In this document: in pieces, positions 1-12,096 of the stretch | Numbering within the stretch: position 1 is the first letter of the stretch | How the letters are laid out: every line of letters begins with the position of its first letter | IMG/VR virus record: IMGVR_UViG_3300045922_000354 | Location: 1-20,979 of that record | Source of the DNA: a virus | Reading direction: 5' to 3' (one strand) | DNA length: 20,979 nt | Notes under the pieces: generated by a model | Database searches by the model: none | Told to the model about the DNA's origin: nothing | The model's input: the letters and a program-made list of their open reading frames with translations, nothing else | Translations under genes and position numbers: made by a program

Positions 1-3000
1 CCGCTTGCTTTAAGAATAGCCGCCTTTTGTTCGTCTGAGTAATACTCATTCGTCATAGCGGTATTAAGTGCTTTAAGTACTGATTTGCGATCTTTCATGT
101 TTGTTTTAATTGATTTATTATCAAACACAGAGAACGTAATTCTTTCCTCACTTGGAATACCTCCATTATCGAGCATTTTCATTGTTTGAGCATTAAACTC
201 TTTTTTCTGTGCTGGGTTCATTTTTTCTGGAACAGTATCGCCACCCTTTGTAGTTTTTTCACCACCAAACATGGCTTGGAGAAAGTTTTGTTTATCACTA
301 TTTTTATTAGCAAGCCAGTTTTTGTCTTTCTTGAAGGCTTCTGCCCCAGATGGATCAGATTGTTGAAGTAATTTATAAATTTCTTTATCACTCTTATTTA
401 GACCTTCGTTTACCCCTCCAAACATATTATCTATCGCAGCATTATCTACGAACGTATTTGAGAGTGTTTTACCAACAATAGGAATGTTACCAATTAAAAA
501 TCTCTTAGTAGTATTTTTAGGGTCTACATTTTCATCAAAACTCTTTTCTGAGTCATAATTGGTTAAACCAGCATAAGCGTCCGATCCAGCTTTAACTGCT
601 TTAAGAGCATCGCTGCCCGTTGGTCCAGCTAAAGTGCTAATAGCCCCTTGTTCTCCATACTGAAACATTCCCACTAGGTTTTCTATAATACCAAGACTCG
701 TACCATTTTTGATATTGTCTATATAGCGCTGTGCTAATGTCATGTCTTCACGCTTCTTGTTTCTAACAATAGCTGTGACATCTGCCAATATCTCTCCTGC
801 AATAGGAGCTGCAATTCCAACAGCAATTAAATCATTAAGGAGTGGTTTTACATTTCCTTTAGAGAACTCCTCTAAAACTCTCTTACCCTCATTACCAACC
901 ATCTTTGATTGTTGATAGGCAAATGACTTAAACTGAGTGACAACCTTACCTGTAGGTGTCTGCCAGTTGGCAGGAAGATCACCTTCTGGTGAACTAAACT
1001 GAGTTTGTCTTGAGGTATTCTTAGCAGCTACATCTACCATTTTTCGAGCTGCTGCTTCTGGAGTATCAGACTTCCAATCAATGCCAAGTCTTTTTAGCTC
1101 TCTAATACTTGCTTGATTGCCTTTTCCAGCTTGAGCCATTAGTTTCTCAGCATAGATTTTGCCAGCATTTACCGCCATAACTCGGTTGAATCTCTCTGTC
1201 CCATACATACCAATTAATTTAATATACTTACCCACTACCGAGTCATTCTTGTAGTTCTCACCAAAGATCTTGACCATATTTGGTTCAATTTCACCTGCGT
1301 CTTTAGTTATTCTGTATGCTTCTGTTGGGTTAGAAATGACCTTATAAAGGGCTTTAGAAAATGATGGTAAGTCAGTTCGTGCTAGCGTATTTATGTTTTG
1401 AGTGAGATTAAGAACGGAAGTAATCGGGTTTAGTTTTAATACGGTTTGTATTCCCCGAAGCACTCTTGAAATGTCAGCCCCTTCTTGTGGTCCAGCATAT
1501 TTGCCCTTACCGATAAGTTGATCAATATACTCACTTGCGGCTGCACTATCTTTTGTTTGTCCTGCTAGAGAGTAGAGAAGCTCGTCATTTTTGCCAAACA
1601 TCTTCGCATTAGTGTATCGTTGTGTTGCACCACTAATGTAGTTGTATAAGACCTCAAGCCCCTTTTTATGTTCTATCTCTGGGAACTCACGAGAGTAATC
1701 AAGCGCCCCATATCTTCTTTCTTTATTCCTTGCCATGAAGGTATTTACTCTAGCTTGAGCTTGCTTTAGATCAACTCCTTTATCAACCAGTTGGTCTACA
1801 AGTTTGTTCTCATTTTTTGGAACGTGTGGGAAATACTGTGCTAAGTACCCAGTATCTAGTCCAGCTTCTTGTGCTTTTGCTTGAATCTCATTAAGGATCG
1901 CCCTAGTTTCAGCAACAGCTTTTTCTACAGCAGGGCTATCTGGTTTTAACTTGCCTTCCATATAGTCACCAAAGTTAGCTCGTTGTTTTTCTGTAAGTGT
2001 TTTGCCTATATCCTCAATTTTTCTGTTATATACTCCAGCCTCCATCTCAGCAGTCAGAGTAGACTCTTTGTGTAACCGTGACACTTCTTCGCCTGCTTTG
2101 CCAAGGTTTTTAAGATTTCTATATATAGACCTAAAATTACGGTCAAGAAAACGCTGTACTCCGCCAACTTTTTGTTCAGCTTCTTTACCGTACATTTCGC
2201 CATACTCTTTAATCTTTGCTTCAATATCTGGTGAATCTGAGGTTGGTTTAATGGGGTTTTCAGCTTTGGGCGGTTTTTCACTCTCTACCTTCGTTATTCT
2301 GTAAGCATCTCTAAGCATCTTCTCTTTTTCCATTAACTCTACTTTTTGCTCATTAGGAACTTTATCACTCTTAATTTGAGTACGGACTTTGCCCAACTCT
2401 TTACCAATCCTCTTAATTTGTTCTTTTTGAGTTTCTATTTTAGGTTTTGGCTGGAGTATTTCTTCAATAGTTGTAGGCTTAGTCGGCCCTGCTTTCTTCC
2501 CTCCATCAATAGTAATAGCTCCCCTTTGTAAGTATTGTTTTCTGGTTAAACCCAATTCAGCGGCAACTTTATCGGCGTTTGCATCAAAATCAGCTTTACC
2601 AGCTTTAACAGTAGCAGGAGTTAAACCAGCACCTTGTCGCACACCACCAATTAAGGCATTAGAGAGTAGGTCTGAAAGGAAGCGATCTCTATAGTTTTGT
2701 GCGTACCCACCACCACCCTTAGCAGTGTCTTGAGCCGCAAAGTATGCTGTTTCTAGCGGAGTTTCAGCAGCTTCTCTGATCGCACCTTTTACAATCTGTT
2801 TTGGAGCTTGTCTTACTATCTGATTAAAAGTTCCTTGTTTAATAGCATTTCCAGAAGCGCTCAGCGCATCATCAGTCAGACTATTAAGTCCTGGGATAGC
2901 TTTACTTCCTACTTTCAAAAGTTTATCTGCAACAGGGTTTGTAAGTGGATAGATCCAAGAACCCTCAGCTCCTTGTATTGCACCCTCACGCACTCTATCT

Positions 3001-3515
3001 AAACTTGGTATTTGTCTTTGTATTAGATCGCCAATAGCAGAAGAACCACCACCAAAAGCGGCGCCAATAGCGGCGTTTCTAGCCATAAGAGGAATGTTTC
3101 CACCAGCTATTTTCCCTGGAACTCCCATTGCATACCCAGTAAGAGTGCCAAGCGGGGCAGTAATTTGACCAGCAGTTGTTTTTGGTCTATATGAGGAAAC
3201 CTCTGCATATTTTTCTGGAAGGTATTTTTCAAGACCACTATTACCAAGCTGACCACGAATATTAGCAGCGCCAAAACTAAGAAGCGCGTCTGCGGTTCTT
3301 TGAGCTAGTGGAGATTGTCTAAAAGCAGTGTCTATAGAACCACCAGGAGCAAAATTAGCTCTATTTTGAGCTTGCCAGTTACTAAAATTCTGCGCAATAG
3401 CTTGGTTTCTATCAATAGCGCTTTGGCGTGCATTACCAACAAAGTTACTTATAGAATTACCAATAGCTTGCGCTGTTCCTATAGCTTTTTGTTTGATTCT
3501 TTCAAGAAGTAACAT
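1..3515 (-). CDS. Very large internal virion / ejection-type protein (partial, runs off left edge)
   Basis: An uninterrupted minus-strand frame of 1171 codons starts at ATG 3515-3513. It has an AGAGGG Shine-Dalgarno a few bases upstream and remains open at base 1, so the C-terminus is missing. Visible parts: a basic, Gln/Asn-rich N-terminus (residues 1-60); a glycine/alanine-rich hydrophobic stretch (about 110-165) suited to membrane insertion; a charged, Lys/Glu-rich linker (about 340-470); a YFPHVP motif near residue 560; the sequence TQFKSFAYQQ near 862; and a hydrophobic segment near 890-912. A YFPH-type motif, a conserved QFKSF segment and glycine-rich amphipathic parts recur in the giant internal or polyvalent proteins of podovirus-like phages, which travel in the capsid and enter the cell with the DNA. 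That role is inferred from composition, size and position; no enzymatic domain is recognised. It follows the 377-aa gene by 21 bp, so the two are probably cotranscribed. An assignment to a particular large-polyvalent-protein domain needs a profile search. Confidence 0.75.
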   Translation of the reverse strand, partial: MLLLERIKQKAIGTAQAIGNSISNFVGNARQSAIDRNQAIAQNFSNWQAQNRANFAPGGSIDTAFRQSPLAQRTADALLSFGAANIRGQLGNSGLEKYLPEKYAEVSSYRPKTTAGQITAPLGTLTGYAMGVPGKIAGGNIPLMARNAAIGAAFGGGSSAIGDLIQRQIPSLDRVREGAIQGAEGSWIYPLTNPVADKLLKVGSKAIPGLNSLTDDALSASGNAIKQGTFNQIVRQAPKQIVKGAIREAAETPLETAYFAAQDTAKGGGGYAQNYRDRFLSDLLSNALIGGVRQGAGLTPATVKAGKADFDANADKVAAELGLTRKQYLQRGAITIDGGKKAGPTKPTTIEEILQPKPKIETQKEQIKRIGKELGKVRTQIKSDKVPNEQKVELMEKEKMLRDAYRITKVESEKPPKAENPIKPTSDSPDIEAKIKEYGEMYGKEAEQKVGGVQRFLDRNFRSIYRNLKNLGKAGEEVSRLHKESTLTAEMEAGVYNRKIEDIGKTLTEKQRANFGDYMEGKLKPDSPAVEKAVAETRAILNEIQAKAQEAGLDTGYLAQYFPHVPKNENKLVDQLVDKGVDLKQAQARVNTFMARNKERRYGALDYSREFPEIEHKKGLEVLYNYISGATQRYTNAKMFGKNDELLYSLAGQTKDSAAASEYIDQLIGKGKYAGPQEGADISRVLRGIQTVLKLNPITSVLNLTQNINTLARTDLPSFSKALYKVISNPTEAYRITKDAGEIEPNMVKIFGENYKNDSVVGKYIKLIGMYGTERFNRVMAVNAGKIYAEKLMAQAGKGNQASIRELKRLGIDWKSDTPEAAARKMVDVAAKNTSRQTQFSSPEGDLPANWQTPTGKVVTQFKSFAYQQSKMVGNEGKRVLEEFSKGNVKPLLNDLIAVGIAAPIAGEILADVTAIVRNKKREDMTLAQRYIDNIKNGTSLGIIENLVGMFQYGEQGAISTLAGPTGSDALKAVKAGSDAYAGLTNYDSEKSFDENVDPKNTTKRFLIGNIPIVGKTLSNTFVDNAAIDNMFGGVNEGLNKSDKEIYKLLQQSDPSGAEAFKKDKNWLANKNSDKQNFLQAMFGGEKTTKGGDTVPEKMNPAQKKEFNAQTMKMLDNGGIPSEERITFSVFDNKSIKTNMKDRKSVLKALNTAMTNEYYSDEQKAAILKAS

Positions 3516-3536: not shown

Positions 3537-4670
3537 CTATAATAAACCAGCTTGTCTTCTTCTAAGTAGCCTATCTTGATCTAATTGACTCTTACCTTCA
3601 AGCGCGAAATTAGTGTTTTCATTTCCTGGTCTACCGAATGCTGAAACTATGGGATTAGCTAAGCCACTAAGTCCTTCAGTAAAGTCTTTTCCATATCCCT
3701 CATTAACATACCGCTGGAAGTTTTGGTTATTAATTCCAGCAAGCGCTGCAGCTAGCGCAGCTCTGTTGTTTTGAGCGTTTATAAGCAGGTTTTGTAATGT
3801 ATTTAACCCCTCCTCACCTACAGCTCTTTGCGCTTGCGCGTACTGTCTTTCAATCTCACCTTTGTTCCAGTTAGCAGAAGCAACTTGGTCGTCAGCCCAG
3901 TTATTTCTTTCGTTAAATTGTGCTTGATTAGCTCCAAGATTCTTTTGCTGTACAGCAGATACATTTCCAAGTTGCGCTGATCGTTGTCCCTCGTTTCTTC
4001 TTAGAGCTTCATCGAGTGCTGAACCACTAACCCCACTAGCCAACATTCGTCTTGTGGTCGCAGCGTCAGCTCCACGAGCTGCTCCTTGCATAGCATTAAG
4101 AGCGTTATTATATGAAGCGTAATTTTCATCATCTGCTAATTGTTTTTGTTCTGTGAAGCCTTTTCTCTTAGCATCAATAGCTTTAAGAATGTTGTCTACC
4201 ATACTTAGTGCTGAATTCCTATTTCCACGAAGCTCATCTAATCTGCTAGCAATCATTCTGTTGATTTGTTCCATTCGAGTATCTTCTTGAGAATCGTTTA
4301 TCTTTTTCCAGCCATCAGCAGCATCCCAAAACATTCCACTACGATTGCCACCACCGCCAGTATTGCCACCGCCGCCAGTATTGCCACCGCCGCCAGTATT
4401 TTTAGTTAGAGGTGGTTTTTTAATATTAAGAACCCCTCCATGCAAAGCAGTCTCGCGACCAGCGTCGCTTACATTACTACCAAGTATAAAGTTATTGACT
4501 CTCCAGTCTTCCATTCCCTTATGTATTTGACCTGTAGAGGCATCATACCCTGTGTTTACAGTTGGTCGATAGTTGTTTACACGCTCTGATAGACCATACT
4601 CTCTAGCTCCTAGACCTGTACCAGCATAGTCGATTGCATTTGCTAAAAGTTGTCTTAAATTTATTGCCAT
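3537..4670 (-). CDS. Coiled-coil structural protein with NTGGGG repeat, likely internal virion protein
   Basis: This 377-aa protein is probably a virion structural or ejection partner of the giant protein encoded just downstream. The ATG at 4670 has AAGGA about 9 nt upstream; the stop is TAG. Residues 1-85 look globular. They are followed by a low-complexity spacer of three NTGGGG units (about residues 90-108), encoded by an 18-bp tandem DNA repeat. Residues 125-320 are long, polar, Ala/Gln/Asn/Arg-rich helices (for example ASRLDELRGNR and AALAAALAGINNQN), consistent with coiled coil. The C-terminus ends in a basic RLLRRRQAGLL. No catalytic motif or signal peptide is seen. It is the first gene of a two-gene minus-strand unit. 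In many podovirus-like genomes a mid-sized helical protein precedes the large ejected protein, which supports the role by analogy only. Real gene: confident. Function: tentative. Confidence 0.8.
   Translation of the reverse strand: MAINLRQLLANAIDYAGTGLGAREYGLSERVNNYRPTVNTGYDASTGQIHKGMEDWRVNNFILGSNVSDAGRETALHGGVLNIKKPPLTKNTGGGGNTGGGGNTGGGGNRSGMFWDAADGWKKINDSQEDTRMEQINRMIASRLDELRGNRNSALSMVDNILKAIDAKRKGFTEQKQLADDENYASYNNALNAMQGAARGADAATTRRMLASGVSGSALDEALRRNEGQRSAQLGNVSAVQQKNLGANQAQFNERNNWADDQVASANWNKGEIERQYAQAQRAVGEEGLNTLQNLLINAQNNRAALAAALAGINNQNFQRYVNEGYGKDFTEGLSGLANPIVSAFGRPGNENTNFALEGKSQLDQDRLLRRRQAGLL
4348..4401 (-). repeat. Three tandem 18-bp units encoding NTGGGG
   Basis: Three consecutive 18-bp units on the plus strand (core CCACCGCCGCCAGTATTG, first and last units with one change each) lie inside the 377-aa gene and keep its frame. 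Because the unit is a multiple of three, gain or loss of units by slippage would change only the flexible glycine linker. Confidence 0.9.
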
Positions 4671-4716
4671 AACAGTTTTCCTTTTTCTATAATATGTTAT
4701 TTACTCTAAGTTGCTT

Positions 4717-4740
4717 AATCATAGAATAATCATAATGATT
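4717..4740. repeat. AATCATA direct repeat plus AATCAT-A-ATGATT palindrome, candidate operator
   Basis: AATCATA occurs at 4717-4723 and 4728-4734, 11 bp apart, so on the same helical face. The second copy is half of a perfect 13-bp inverted repeat AATCAT-A-ATGATT (4728-4740). The site lies between the divergent start codons and overlaps the candidate -10 box of the leftward promoter. A dimeric regulator could bind here. The adjacent winged-helix protein is a possible but unproven ligand. Confidence 0.4.
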
Positions 4741-4751
4741 GCTTTAGGTAA
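4723..4751 (-). promoter_or_regulatory. Candidate leftward promoter for the 377-aa gene
   Basis: Read on the minus strand, TTACCT (4751-4746) and TATTCT (4728-4723) are separated by 17 bp, 53 bp before the ATG at 4670. The match to a sigma-70 consensus is moderate. The TTACCT box belongs to a TTACCTAA motif also present upstream of three other minus-strand genes. Confidence 0.35.
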
Positions 4752-4772
4752 CAGATTGCTGTATGTTATACT
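4743..4772 (+). promoter_or_regulatory. Candidate rightward extended -10 promoter for the winged-helix gene
   Basis: TGT-TATACT (4764-4772) is a good extended -10 element. The -35 region is weak (TTTAGG 4743-4748, 18-bp spacer). The predicted start is near 4779, which would place the whole interleaved inverted repeat at 4784-4838 in the 5' leader of the mRNA. Confidence 0.5.
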
Positions 4773-4783
4773 AAATTAAGGTA

Positions 4784-4838
4784 TCAATGTTACATACAAA
4801 GAGCCGCCTTTTCGTAACATTGAGGGCGGCTCTTTGTA
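4784..4838 (+). promoter_or_regulatory. Interleaved A-B-A'-B' inverted repeats (pseudoknot/attenuator-like leader element)
   Basis: Two perfect inverted repeats are interlocked. Arm A TCAATGTTAC (4784-4793) is complementary to A' GTAACATTGA (4814-4823). Arm B TACAAAGAGCCGCC (4795-4808) is complementary to B' GGCGGCTCTTTGTA (4825-4838). A' is the loop of the B hairpin, and B lies in the loop of the A hairpin. This is the topology of an H-type pseudoknot, although the 1-nt connectors make full simultaneous pairing sterically doubtful, so competing hairpins are more likely. The GC core GAGCCGCC/GGCGGCTC is flanked by AAA and TTTGTATT and could also act as a weak bidirectional terminator. The Shine-Dalgarno AGAAAGG begins 3 nt after the element. 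Likely role: translational or transcriptional control of the downstream gene (inference). Confidence 0.75.
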
Positions 4839-4851
4839 TTAGAAAGGCTGT

Positions 4852-5565
4852 GTGAGCTTTTTGTTTATCCCAGAGCATATTTTTGAAGATAGCTCCCTCT
4901 CCCTGCAAGAAAAGAATGTCTATGGAATGATTTTTGGACTCACTAAAACAGAGGGTTATTGTTTTGCTACCAATGAGTGGATTGGCAAAAATTTAGGAAT
5001 GAGTGGGAGCATGGTCAGCAAACACATCTCGTCCTTAGTTAAAAAGGGGAAAATGAGAGTTGAGGTGACTAAAGTCAAGAAAAGTGAGGGTACCCCCAAT
5101 GAGTGGGGTACCAGGCGGAAGATATATATTTTTTGCCAACAGGATTCTAACGGGCTATCCATAAATGGTGAACCCCCGTCCACCATAAATGGTGAGTATA
5201 TAGTAAAGAATAGAGAGTATAGTGGTAGTAGGGGGCTAACCACCACTACTACAAAATCTTCTTCTTTTTCTAACAAGAATGTATGTACAAATACTATGGA
5301 CGAGTTCTGGAAAGATTTTAGAACCCTGCTTGATGAAAATGATGGCGAGTTCCGCCAGATTGTTTACGACACTATTGCCGAGATCACCGATGGTGAGTAC
5401 GGGCAAAATGTTCGAGTGACTAGAGAGATGAGAACTGCTTTAGTTGATAAGTTCATGACATTTAATCTTGGCAAAAAACTCACTAAGGAAAAGTGTAAAG
5501 CATATTTTCTCAAATTTGTTAAAACAGAGGATTATAGTAGATTGTACGATCTAGTTGAGGGGTAG
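4852..5565 (+). CDS. Winged-helix DNA-binding protein (candidate replication initiator or regulator)
   Basis: This 237-aa protein starts at GTG 4852 with AGAAAGG 5-6 nt upstream and ends with tandem TAG codons. Residues 17-93 fit a winged helix of the type seen in phage replication-initiator N-termini and HTH_36-like proteins: LSLQEKNVYGMIFGL (helix 1), NEWIGKNLGMSGSMVSKHISSLVKKG (helix-turn-helix, about 41-66), then a basic beta-wing ending RRKIYIF. A Ser/Thr-rich low-complexity linker (about 105-145) joins a helical C-terminal domain (about 148-237; FWKDFRTLLDEND, then KCKAYFLKFVKTED). It is the only plus-strand gene between two minus-strand blocks and is the sole gene of its unit; its stop lies 12 bp from the convergent stop at 5578. 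Its leader carries the interleaved repeats, and its linker DNA carries iteron-like repeats, as in lambda-O-type initiators. DNA binding: likely. Initiator versus transcription regulator: unresolved. Confidence 0.8.
   Translation: MSFLFIPEHIFEDSSLSLQEKNVYGMIFGLTKTEGYCFATNEWIGKNLGMSGSMVSKHISSLVKKGKMRVEVTKVKKSEGTPNEWGTRRKIYIFCQQDSNGLSINGEPPSTINGEYIVKNREYSGSRGLTTTTTKSSSFSNKNVCTNTMDEFWKDFRTLLDENDGEFRQIVYDTIAEITDGEYGQNVRVTREMRTALVDKFMTFNLGKKLTKEKCKAYFLKFVKTEDYSRLYDLVEG
5159..5221 (+). repeat. Iteron-like repeats inside the winged-helix gene, candidate origin
   Basis: CCATAAATGGTGA occurs at 5159-5171 and 5183-5195, with a 24-bp period. Each copy contains the symmetric core CCAT-AA-ATGG. The second copy runs into GAGTATA repeats (5194-5200 and 5215-5221) in an AT-rich stretch. 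Just beyond it, TAGTGGT and ACCACTA form an inverted repeat (about 5220-5247). The repeats lie in the DNA for the inter-domain linker, where lambda-type phages keep origin iterons in their initiator gene. They also encode the peptide repeat SINGEPPS/TINGEYIV, so a protein-level cause is possible. Confidence 0.45.
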
Positions 5566-10938: not shown

Positions 10939-12096
10939 TTAAAGTCCTAGGTTATAAAAATACACATGAGCTTGAGGAATACCCATCATGAAGGTATAGA
11001 TACCTTCAACCTGCCATCGGTAGGATTGACCTTCTTTAGCAAGTGGGTATGTTCTCCAGCTTACAAGTGGTTTGTAACCGATGTCTGACTCATCTGTTAC
11101 GAAGATGAAGTCGTCCATCAAGCCATCAAGCCCCTGTAATTGCACAACGTCAACAGATCCAAAAACGTTAGTGTCGTACTTACGAACTACACCAATACCT
11201 CTTTTTTCAGGAGTTGCGTTAGTTGTGTAAGTGTTACCAGTTTGAATGTACTTAAACTTGTTCATAAACCGCTCTGACACCCACATTACAGGTTTTTTGA
11301 ATGCTTTTTCAGAGATAACTCTAAATGCTTCATCCAATTTTTCCTGTACTGCACGGTCTGGATTAGAACCATTCCATATAGCAGATCCGCCGAAGTCTAA
11401 GGCATTCTCAGGAGCATAAAGATCAATCATGTTCTTCATACCACCCATGTAAGTAATGTCTTGAGCGTTGTCTTTGGCGCGTTTACCAAAAACGATAGCT
11501 CGTTGTAACTTCTCAGTTAATTCCATTTGTTTTCTGGTAATCAACTTTGCAGAGTTCTCTCGTCCTCGTACATTAGAAGCATGGTCGGTGCTTGAGATGT
11601 CTACCACATCTTCGAAGTTACCTACATAGTTAAACAGATCTTCATAGCCAGTTGTGACCATGGTGTCTGCTTTTTTACCATGAGGCGTACCTCCAGAAAT
11701 GATAAAGACGTCAGTTCCAATATCACTTGCTGGGAGTGTTTCTCCAGGAAGCGCTGCTACAGTTAAAGTGTCTCCACCAGTAACTACTGCAACACGAGCC
11801 TGTTGACCTCCAAGAGAGATAACATCATCCACATTGAAGACACCTGGGGTATCAACAATAAGAGTTGTTGCTGCTTGTGAAACAGCTTGTGCCAACTTAG
11901 CTCGCATTGGTCGGTTTGGACGAATTGACCAATCGTATCGGTGAGATGTAACGTCTTTCTCGAAGACTGAGCCATCTAATCTTTGTACTACTTCTCGACG
12001 CATAGCTGGAAACTTGCGTACATTTTTCTCTATATTTATATAGAGTTCTTTTTCACTCGCAGAGGTTGTATTTCTCTGTCCGTAATATGCTTGCAT
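10939..12096 (-). CDS. Major capsid protein, HK97 fold, SU10-like
   Basis: This 385-aa protein starts at ATG 12096 with AGAAAGG 6 nt upstream; the stop is TAA. Residues 1-60 include the N-arm and KELYINIEKNVRKFP. Residues about 70-150 form a beta-rich insertion (ATTLIVDTPGVFNVDDVISL, GDTLTVAALPGE) like the extra domain of SU10-type capsids. DLFNYVGNFEDVVDISSTDHA and RKQMELTEKLQRAIVFGKRA are the spine-helix region. MWVSERFMNKFKYI, DDFIFVTDESDIGYKPL and the C-terminal WRTYPLAKEGQSYRWQVEGI are typical of the SU10/DUF5309 capsid family, whose members use a highly conserved ending of this kind. It is immediately downstream of the scaffold (17 bp), as expected for a co-assembled pair. Confidence in capsid identity is high, in subfamily moderate. 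Confidence 0.88.
   Translation of the reverse strand: MQAYYGQRNTTSASEKELYINIEKNVRKFPAMRREVVQRLDGSVFEKDVTSHRYDWSIRPNRPMRAKLAQAVSQAATTLIVDTPGVFNVDDVISLGGQQARVAVVTGGDTLTVAALPGETLPASDIGTDVFIISGGTPHGKKADTMVTTGYEDLFNYVGNFEDVVDISSTDHASNVRGRENSAKLITRKQMELTEKLQRAIVFGKRAKDNAQDITYMGGMKNMIDLYAPENALDFGGSAIWNGSNPDRAVQEKLDEAFRVISEKAFKKPVMWVSERFMNKFKYIQTGNTYTTNATPEKRGIGVVRKYDTNVFGSVDVVQLQGLDGLMDDFIFVTDESDIGYKPLVSWRTYPLAKEGQSYRWQVEGIYTFMMGIPQAHVYFYNLGL

Follow-up and report, generated by a model that had tools for sequence, protein, structure and literature searches.

Interlocked leaders upstream of phage replication initiators suggest a shared, undescribed timing control of replication

Introduction

Phages must time the switch to replication, and most of the leader-RNA controls of replication that we know of come from plasmids and from P4. 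Three described systems come closest to the locus examined here. In the leaders of pT181 repC and pIP501 repR, a pre-emptor segment pairs with the 5' arm of a terminator, and a countertranscript RNA triggers termination (PMC5703833). In P4 immunity, which involves the CI RNA and the segments seqA and seqC, replication genes are subject to RNA-guided premature termination (PMC4825925). The repZ gene of ColIb-P9 (IncI-alpha) needs a true pseudoknot for its translation and is accompanied by an antisense Inc RNA (PMC8383071).

Here we describe the leader of a predicted replication initiator gene in IMG/VR record IMGVR_UViG_3300045922_000354 (20,979 nt, called the window below), and compare it with the initiator leaders of related phages and with these systems.

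Results and Discussion

Phage, initiator gene and cassette

The window covers part of the genome of an uncultured podovirus whose capsid, portal and adaptor are of the SU10 type (Pfam), the adaptor match being just below the family cut-off but clear by E-value. These families are shared with the SU10/Kuravirus-like podoviruses, but the phage belongs to a distant uncultured clade without a close isolate; no isolate matched it in DNA or capsid. Relatives of the terminase were seen in metagenome bins labelled as Heimdallarchaeota, Saccharibacteria and Moraniibacteriota (L236, L237 and L238), which is either a possible hint of the host or mis-binning.

The gene behind the leader (Table 1) is the lone plus-strand gene among minus-strand structural genes. 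In PHROG it matches replication initiators (phrog_270; E 1.7e-11) and DnaD-like loaders, with phrog_186 at E 5.1e-7, and HTH_36 falls just below cut-off. Its homologue in the relative G002, 61% identical over the first 120 aa, sits between genes for a DnaB-type helicase and a RecA-like protein. Both the PHROG matches and the placement of this homologue in a replication gene cluster favor the suggestion, made in an earlier note on this DNA, that the gene may be an initiator. A search of viral and genome collections returned no close relatives of the window initiator. In the initiator genes of both the window and G002 (L078 1673-1714), copies of CCATAAATGG stand at 24-nt spacing and are possible iterons of an origin; since the coding sequence STINGE is likewise conserved, we put this role forward as a possibility.

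Table 1. Positions of the leader, its elements and the initiator gene in the window
Feature	Positions	Strand	Remarks
Alternative sigma-70-like promoter, TTGCCA-18-TATAAT	4664-4693	+	11/12 consensus positions
195-bp block	4668-4862	+	100% identical in G001, which has lost the gene
Extended -10-like element, TGTTATACT	4764-4772	+	Read from sequence; absent from the -35/-10 scan list
A arm, TCAATGTTAC	4784-4793	+	Complementary to the loop of hairpin B; inverted-repeat search
B 5' arm, ATACAAAGAGCCGCC	4794-4808	+	Terminator-like hairpin; inverted-repeat search, folding
A' arm, GTAACATTGA	4814-4823	+	Inside the loop of B; inverted-repeat search
B' 3' arm, GGCGGCTCTTTGTAT	4825-4839	+	GGCGGCTC core, then U-rich TTTGTAT; inverted-repeat search, folding
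U-rich tail, TTTGTATTAG	4833-4842	+	6/10 T; weaker than the T6 of relatives
Shine-Dalgarno-like AAGG	4844-4847	+	Read from sequence
Predicted initiator gene, winged-helix, DnaD/O-like	4852-5565	+	237 aa, GTG start
Two CCATAAATGGTGA repeats	5159-5195	+	24-nt spacing, inside the gene; candidate origin iterons

The relative G001 (IMGVR_UViG_3300044941_000125), about 98.6% identical to the window over the neighboring structural genes, retains the leader block and lacks the initiator gene, its sequence jumping from codon 4 to just past the stop. Because a Shine-Dalgarno sequence, the GTG and three codons remain, gene loss is likelier than a pristine site, and the persistence of the leader in this gene-less genome indicates that it is not tied to the initiator gene in every genome. 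G002 and G003, with capsids 67% identical to that of the window, keep the late gene order and have neither the gene nor the hairpin at this place; the gene was accordingly rejected as a fixed part of the locus. From the comparison with all three genomes, leader and initiator appear to be a cassette in the lineage of the window.

Other differences from G001 were seen nearby. In the late gene at 3537-4670, the N-terminal third differs completely from its G001 counterpart (window 4375-4668 versus L003 4775-5032), and that counterpart resembles the version in the 67% relatives. Window and G001 are nearly identical in the remainder of this gene and in the intergenic block next to it, as after a segment swap with its boundary at the start codon. 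One late protein, very long at about 1770 aa in G001 (L005 1262-6565; window 3-3515), has a divergent middle and near-identical ends in the two phages. G001 also carries a TnpB-like (OrfB-type) gene (L004 9644-10756, plus strand), opposite in orientation to the replication genes and flanked by a primase-like gene and a small replication gene.

Two interlocked inverted repeats

An inverted-repeat search of the leader found exactly two perfect inverted repeats, A (10 bp, arms separated by 20 nt) and B (15 bp, arms separated by 16 nt), arranged in the order A-B-A'-B' with linkers of 0 nt (A/B), 5 nt (B/A') and 1 nt (A'/B'). The earlier note had reported two perfect, interlocked repeats in an order rare by chance, and both observations hold, as does the 10-bp length of A; its 14 bp for B is corrected here to 15. 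In 2000 dinucleotide shuffles of the 215-nt leader, the interlock score never rose above 43, against 61 for the actual sequence, and the A-B pair is the top-scoring interlocked pair in the 1.07 Mb of phage DNA examined. The 56-nt RNA from 4784 to 4839 folds at -29.1 kcal/mol (z -8.5); individually, hairpin A has an energy of -10.8 and hairpin B of -29.1, so that in the completed leader B is by a wide margin the more stable.

For both helices to form in full as a pseudoknot, 0 nt would have to span the 15 bp and 1 nt the 10 bp. With linkers this short, coexistence of complete A and complete B is sterically excluded, and the default picture is therefore one of two mutually exclusive hairpins. 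The same note had offered a pseudoknot or competing hairpins: the latter survives, the former only in trimmed forms.

It is plausible that the extended -10-like element starts transcription near 4779, and the alternative promoter would give a predicted start near 4700; sigma-70-like sites in the region number no more than in shuffles.

Hairpin B resembles a terminator

Hairpin B consists of a G+C-rich 15-bp stem with a GGCGGCTC core and is followed by a U-rich tract with six T in ten positions. It looks like an intrinsic (Rho-independent) terminator-type hairpin, with a tail that is weak for a terminator. A simple terminator scan lists none here, the 16-nt loop of B being outside its range. 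The B core recurs as a hairpin stem in 79 viral contigs, mostly between genes, and stems of this type are common between the genes of unrelated phages; in a collection scan for A' beside the B core, the other three matches were coding and due to chance. A precedes the terminator-like hairpin on the plus strand only, which is the strand of the initiator gene.

Long leaders in relatives

The early initiator leaders of G002, G001 and G025 share the order a-b-c-a'-b'-c'-UUUUUU-gene, in which segments a short way upstream are complementary to the loop of the terminator. In G002, a strong terminator and a TTTACA-18-TATACT promoter precede the leader, in which crossing helices of 13 bp (a), 9 bp (b) and about 20 bp (c, containing G-U pairs) are followed by UUUUUU and the gene. 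In G001 the corresponding helices of 11, 11 and 14 bp, again followed by UUUUUU, differ in sequence from those of G002 and precede an initiator (phrog_11233) of a family that is non-homologous to that of the window. The U6 terminator lies tens of nucleotides upstream of the start codon in both.

Covariation across related phages had been proposed as a check, and its outcome is favorable: in a hand-made alignment of three sequences with hand-picked a and c arms, the initiator leaders are interlocked and their arms have changed yet remain complementary, 10 of the 25 a:a' and c:c' pairs being altered on both sides and 98.7% of cells pairing, a result equalled by none of 500 column shuffles. The U-G pairs in the c stems would fit a sense RNA. 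When whole leaders were shuffled 2000 times, the observed interlock was never reached for G002 or G001, 28 times for G025 and 15 times for G024. No perfect interlocked pair was found in G009, and in G009, G018, G021 and G024 the interlocked architecture is looser or absent. As a blind check, we also took 292 large-loop terminator-like hairpins, some counted repeatedly, and looked for the longest stretch in the 110 nt preceding each hairpin that is complementary to its loop. The two top-ranking distinct places are the initiator leaders of G002 (13) and G001 (11); the window element (9) and G025 (8) are also high-ranked, with a downstream control of up to 10.

Like these leaders, window 4784-4839 has a terminator-like hairpin before an initiator, with a loop complementary to a segment just upstream. 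It was not reported by a covariance model of the long leaders (R1, which contains nested helices only), and its alignment with them is not above chance; window and long leaders thus share architecture only. This recurrence in relatives is what raises the window element above a curiosity.

R1 found no further long leaders across kin records and three metagenome bins, and a scan for the c' arm CAATTAAGCGGTTTTT gave real matches in only three known contigs, the other matches being due to chance. Annotated initiators in ten phage isolates mostly lie within tens of bases of the upstream gene (maximum about 163), so long leaders are not seen there.

Two further leaders deserve description. In G024 (L082, minus strand), the 220 nt before the initiator hold a long-range pair, TGTCCTAATCGTGGTA and TACCACGATAGGACA, and then GAGCCCTC-GAGGGCTCTTTT, a strong terminator lying right at the start codon. 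In a distant relative, the leader of a scaffold-like gene (L045 4419-4493) is also interlocked (GATGAGTTGG, CACTAGCCC); initiator genes are thus not alone in having such a leader.

The most serious alternative is a plain bidirectional terminator, in which B would separate the minus-strand late genes from the initiator cassette on the plus strand and the complementarity of A would be a by-product. The symmetry of B (AAAGAGCCGCC/GGCGGCTCTTT), the mostly intergenic position of similar stems in other phages and the retention of B in G001, where the initiator gene is missing, are all consistent with this. However, A is a perfect 10-bp complement that directly abuts B, which is beyond chance; loop-to-upstream complementarity with covariation recurs in the initiator leaders of relatives; and the 67% relatives do without a hairpin between the same late genes. 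We consider this explanation unlikely, at roughly one chance in a handful.

Proposed mechanism

Step-wise folding of the window leader, in nested-energy calculations rather than kinetics, makes A the minimum-energy fold for 3' ends from 4820 to 4828 (down to -12.8); B is the best fold from 4830 (-14.6) and reaches -29.5 at 4840. This is the order anticipated in the earlier note, A forming first and B displacing it. In G002, a likewise forms before c and persists until the transcript is about 6 nt short of the end of the U-tract; in G001, a is followed by b and b by c. RNA polymerase covers roughly the last ten nucleotides of its transcript, and the hand-over from A to B therefore coincides with copying of the U-rich tail.

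We propose the following sequence of events. RNA polymerase would start upstream of A. According to the calculations, A' would pair with A as it emerges, holding the 5' arm of the terminator in the loop, and B would become the lower-energy fold once about half of B' has emerged and the polymerase is copying the U-rich tail. By keeping the B 5' arm in its loop, the early helix would delay the terminator, leaving a balance between stopping near 4840 and reading through into the initiator gene. In the long leaders, an early helix a, or both a and b, would cross the strong U6 terminator c; we show the same principle there at the level of sequence and covariation, as distinct from function. On the most economical view, the balance could set the timing and the amount of initiator, and polymerase speed or pausing, an RNA acting in trans or a protein are candidates for shifting it.

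Whether the window leader is such a transcription attenuator of a phage replication initiator, with early helices delaying a terminator, seems to us an evenly balanced question. A much broader proposal is that of a widespread, undescribed class of phage leaders in which one or several upstream segments address the terminator loop. Successive crossing helices would serve the replication initiator as a co-transcriptional timer, and leaders that were terminated or left stranded, as in G001, would act in trans between cassettes; we regard this as improbable.

Other readings of the leader

An H-type pseudoknot trimmed to, say, 6 bp of A and 10 bp of B, acting on initiator translation like that of IncI/IncB repZ, would be sterically possible in our geometry check, whose minimum loop lengths are approximations that we set. 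Its stacking is similar to that of full B (about -31 versus -30.4 kcal/mol), but these values are before loop costs, which favor plain B. In its favor, the interlocked element stops 4 nt upstream of the Shine-Dalgarno sequence; against it, the full version is impossible given linkers of 0 and 1 nt, the terminator of the relatives, with its U6, lies tens of nucleotides before the start codon, and a hairpin covering the Shine-Dalgarno sequence is no better than in shuffles (z -0.93). The last result likewise gives no support to the suggestion that the leader controls ribosome access. We judge the trimmed pseudoknot to be quite improbable, and return to attenuation as the preferred reading.

On another reading, termination in the leader would release a short RNA with a trans effect on initiator leaders, its own or that of the early region, like the CI RNA of P4, whose replication genes are under RNA-guided termination (PMC4825925). 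The leader is kept without its gene in G001, and the B arm (window 4794-4808) pairs at 15 of 15 positions, two of them G-U, with the 3' arm and U tract of the terminator in the G001 early leader (L004 about 12025-12040, minus strand). This complementarity, however, is only slightly above shuffles (13/300) and is explained by a shared terminator grammar. We judge a trans-acting RNA to be highly improbable.

Equally improbable is an element that works as DNA, whether a compound operator or a site of recombination, with GTAACATTGA as two half sites in inverted orientation: the two perfect inverted copies overlap a possible minus-strand promoter, read from the sequence, and the 195-bp block is an identity island between swapped coding sequences, but copies of the A motif show no excess over chance in the window and the early region of a relative, which also disfavors the compound operator of the earlier note, and the covarying arms of the relatives differ in sequence, with U-G pairs that point to RNA.

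Comparison with known systems

No Rfam family scored above its gathering score for the window, G002 or G001 leaders, and permissive thresholds gave chance matches only. With ColIb-P9 repZ, the window leader shares interlocked pairing upstream of an initiator gene; it differs in that a full pseudoknot is impossible and a terminator-like hairpin is present, and the plasmid pseudoknot analogy of the earlier note is weaker than one with attenuation. The likeness to P4 lies in phage replication genes behind an untranslated leader with complementary segments and premature termination (predicted here), whereas P4 uses a processed trans-acting RNA and its segments are ordered differently. By the features tested, neither the P4 nor the repZ system fits the window leader.

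The likeness to pT181 and pIP501 comprises an initiator leader whose gene is closely preceded by a terminator-like hairpin, together with a competing complementary segment upstream. In these plasmids, however, the upstream segment pairs with the 5' arm of the terminator, whereas A in the window, like the corresponding segments in G001, G002 and G025, pairs with the terminator loop, and the helices cross instead of sharing bases. Furthermore, a scan for promoters of the sigma-70-like type found no antisense promoter reading into the leader from nearby. Since the loop is addressed and no antisense promoter is seen, the leader is attenuator-like yet outside the pT181/pIP501 family. The interlocked but differently spelled leaders of the window and its relatives suggest a shared, undescribed timing control of phage replication. 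If true, this would supply a sequence rule for searching other phages, and a loop-addressed terminator before unrelated initiators would represent a different, very simple design of kinetic attenuator.
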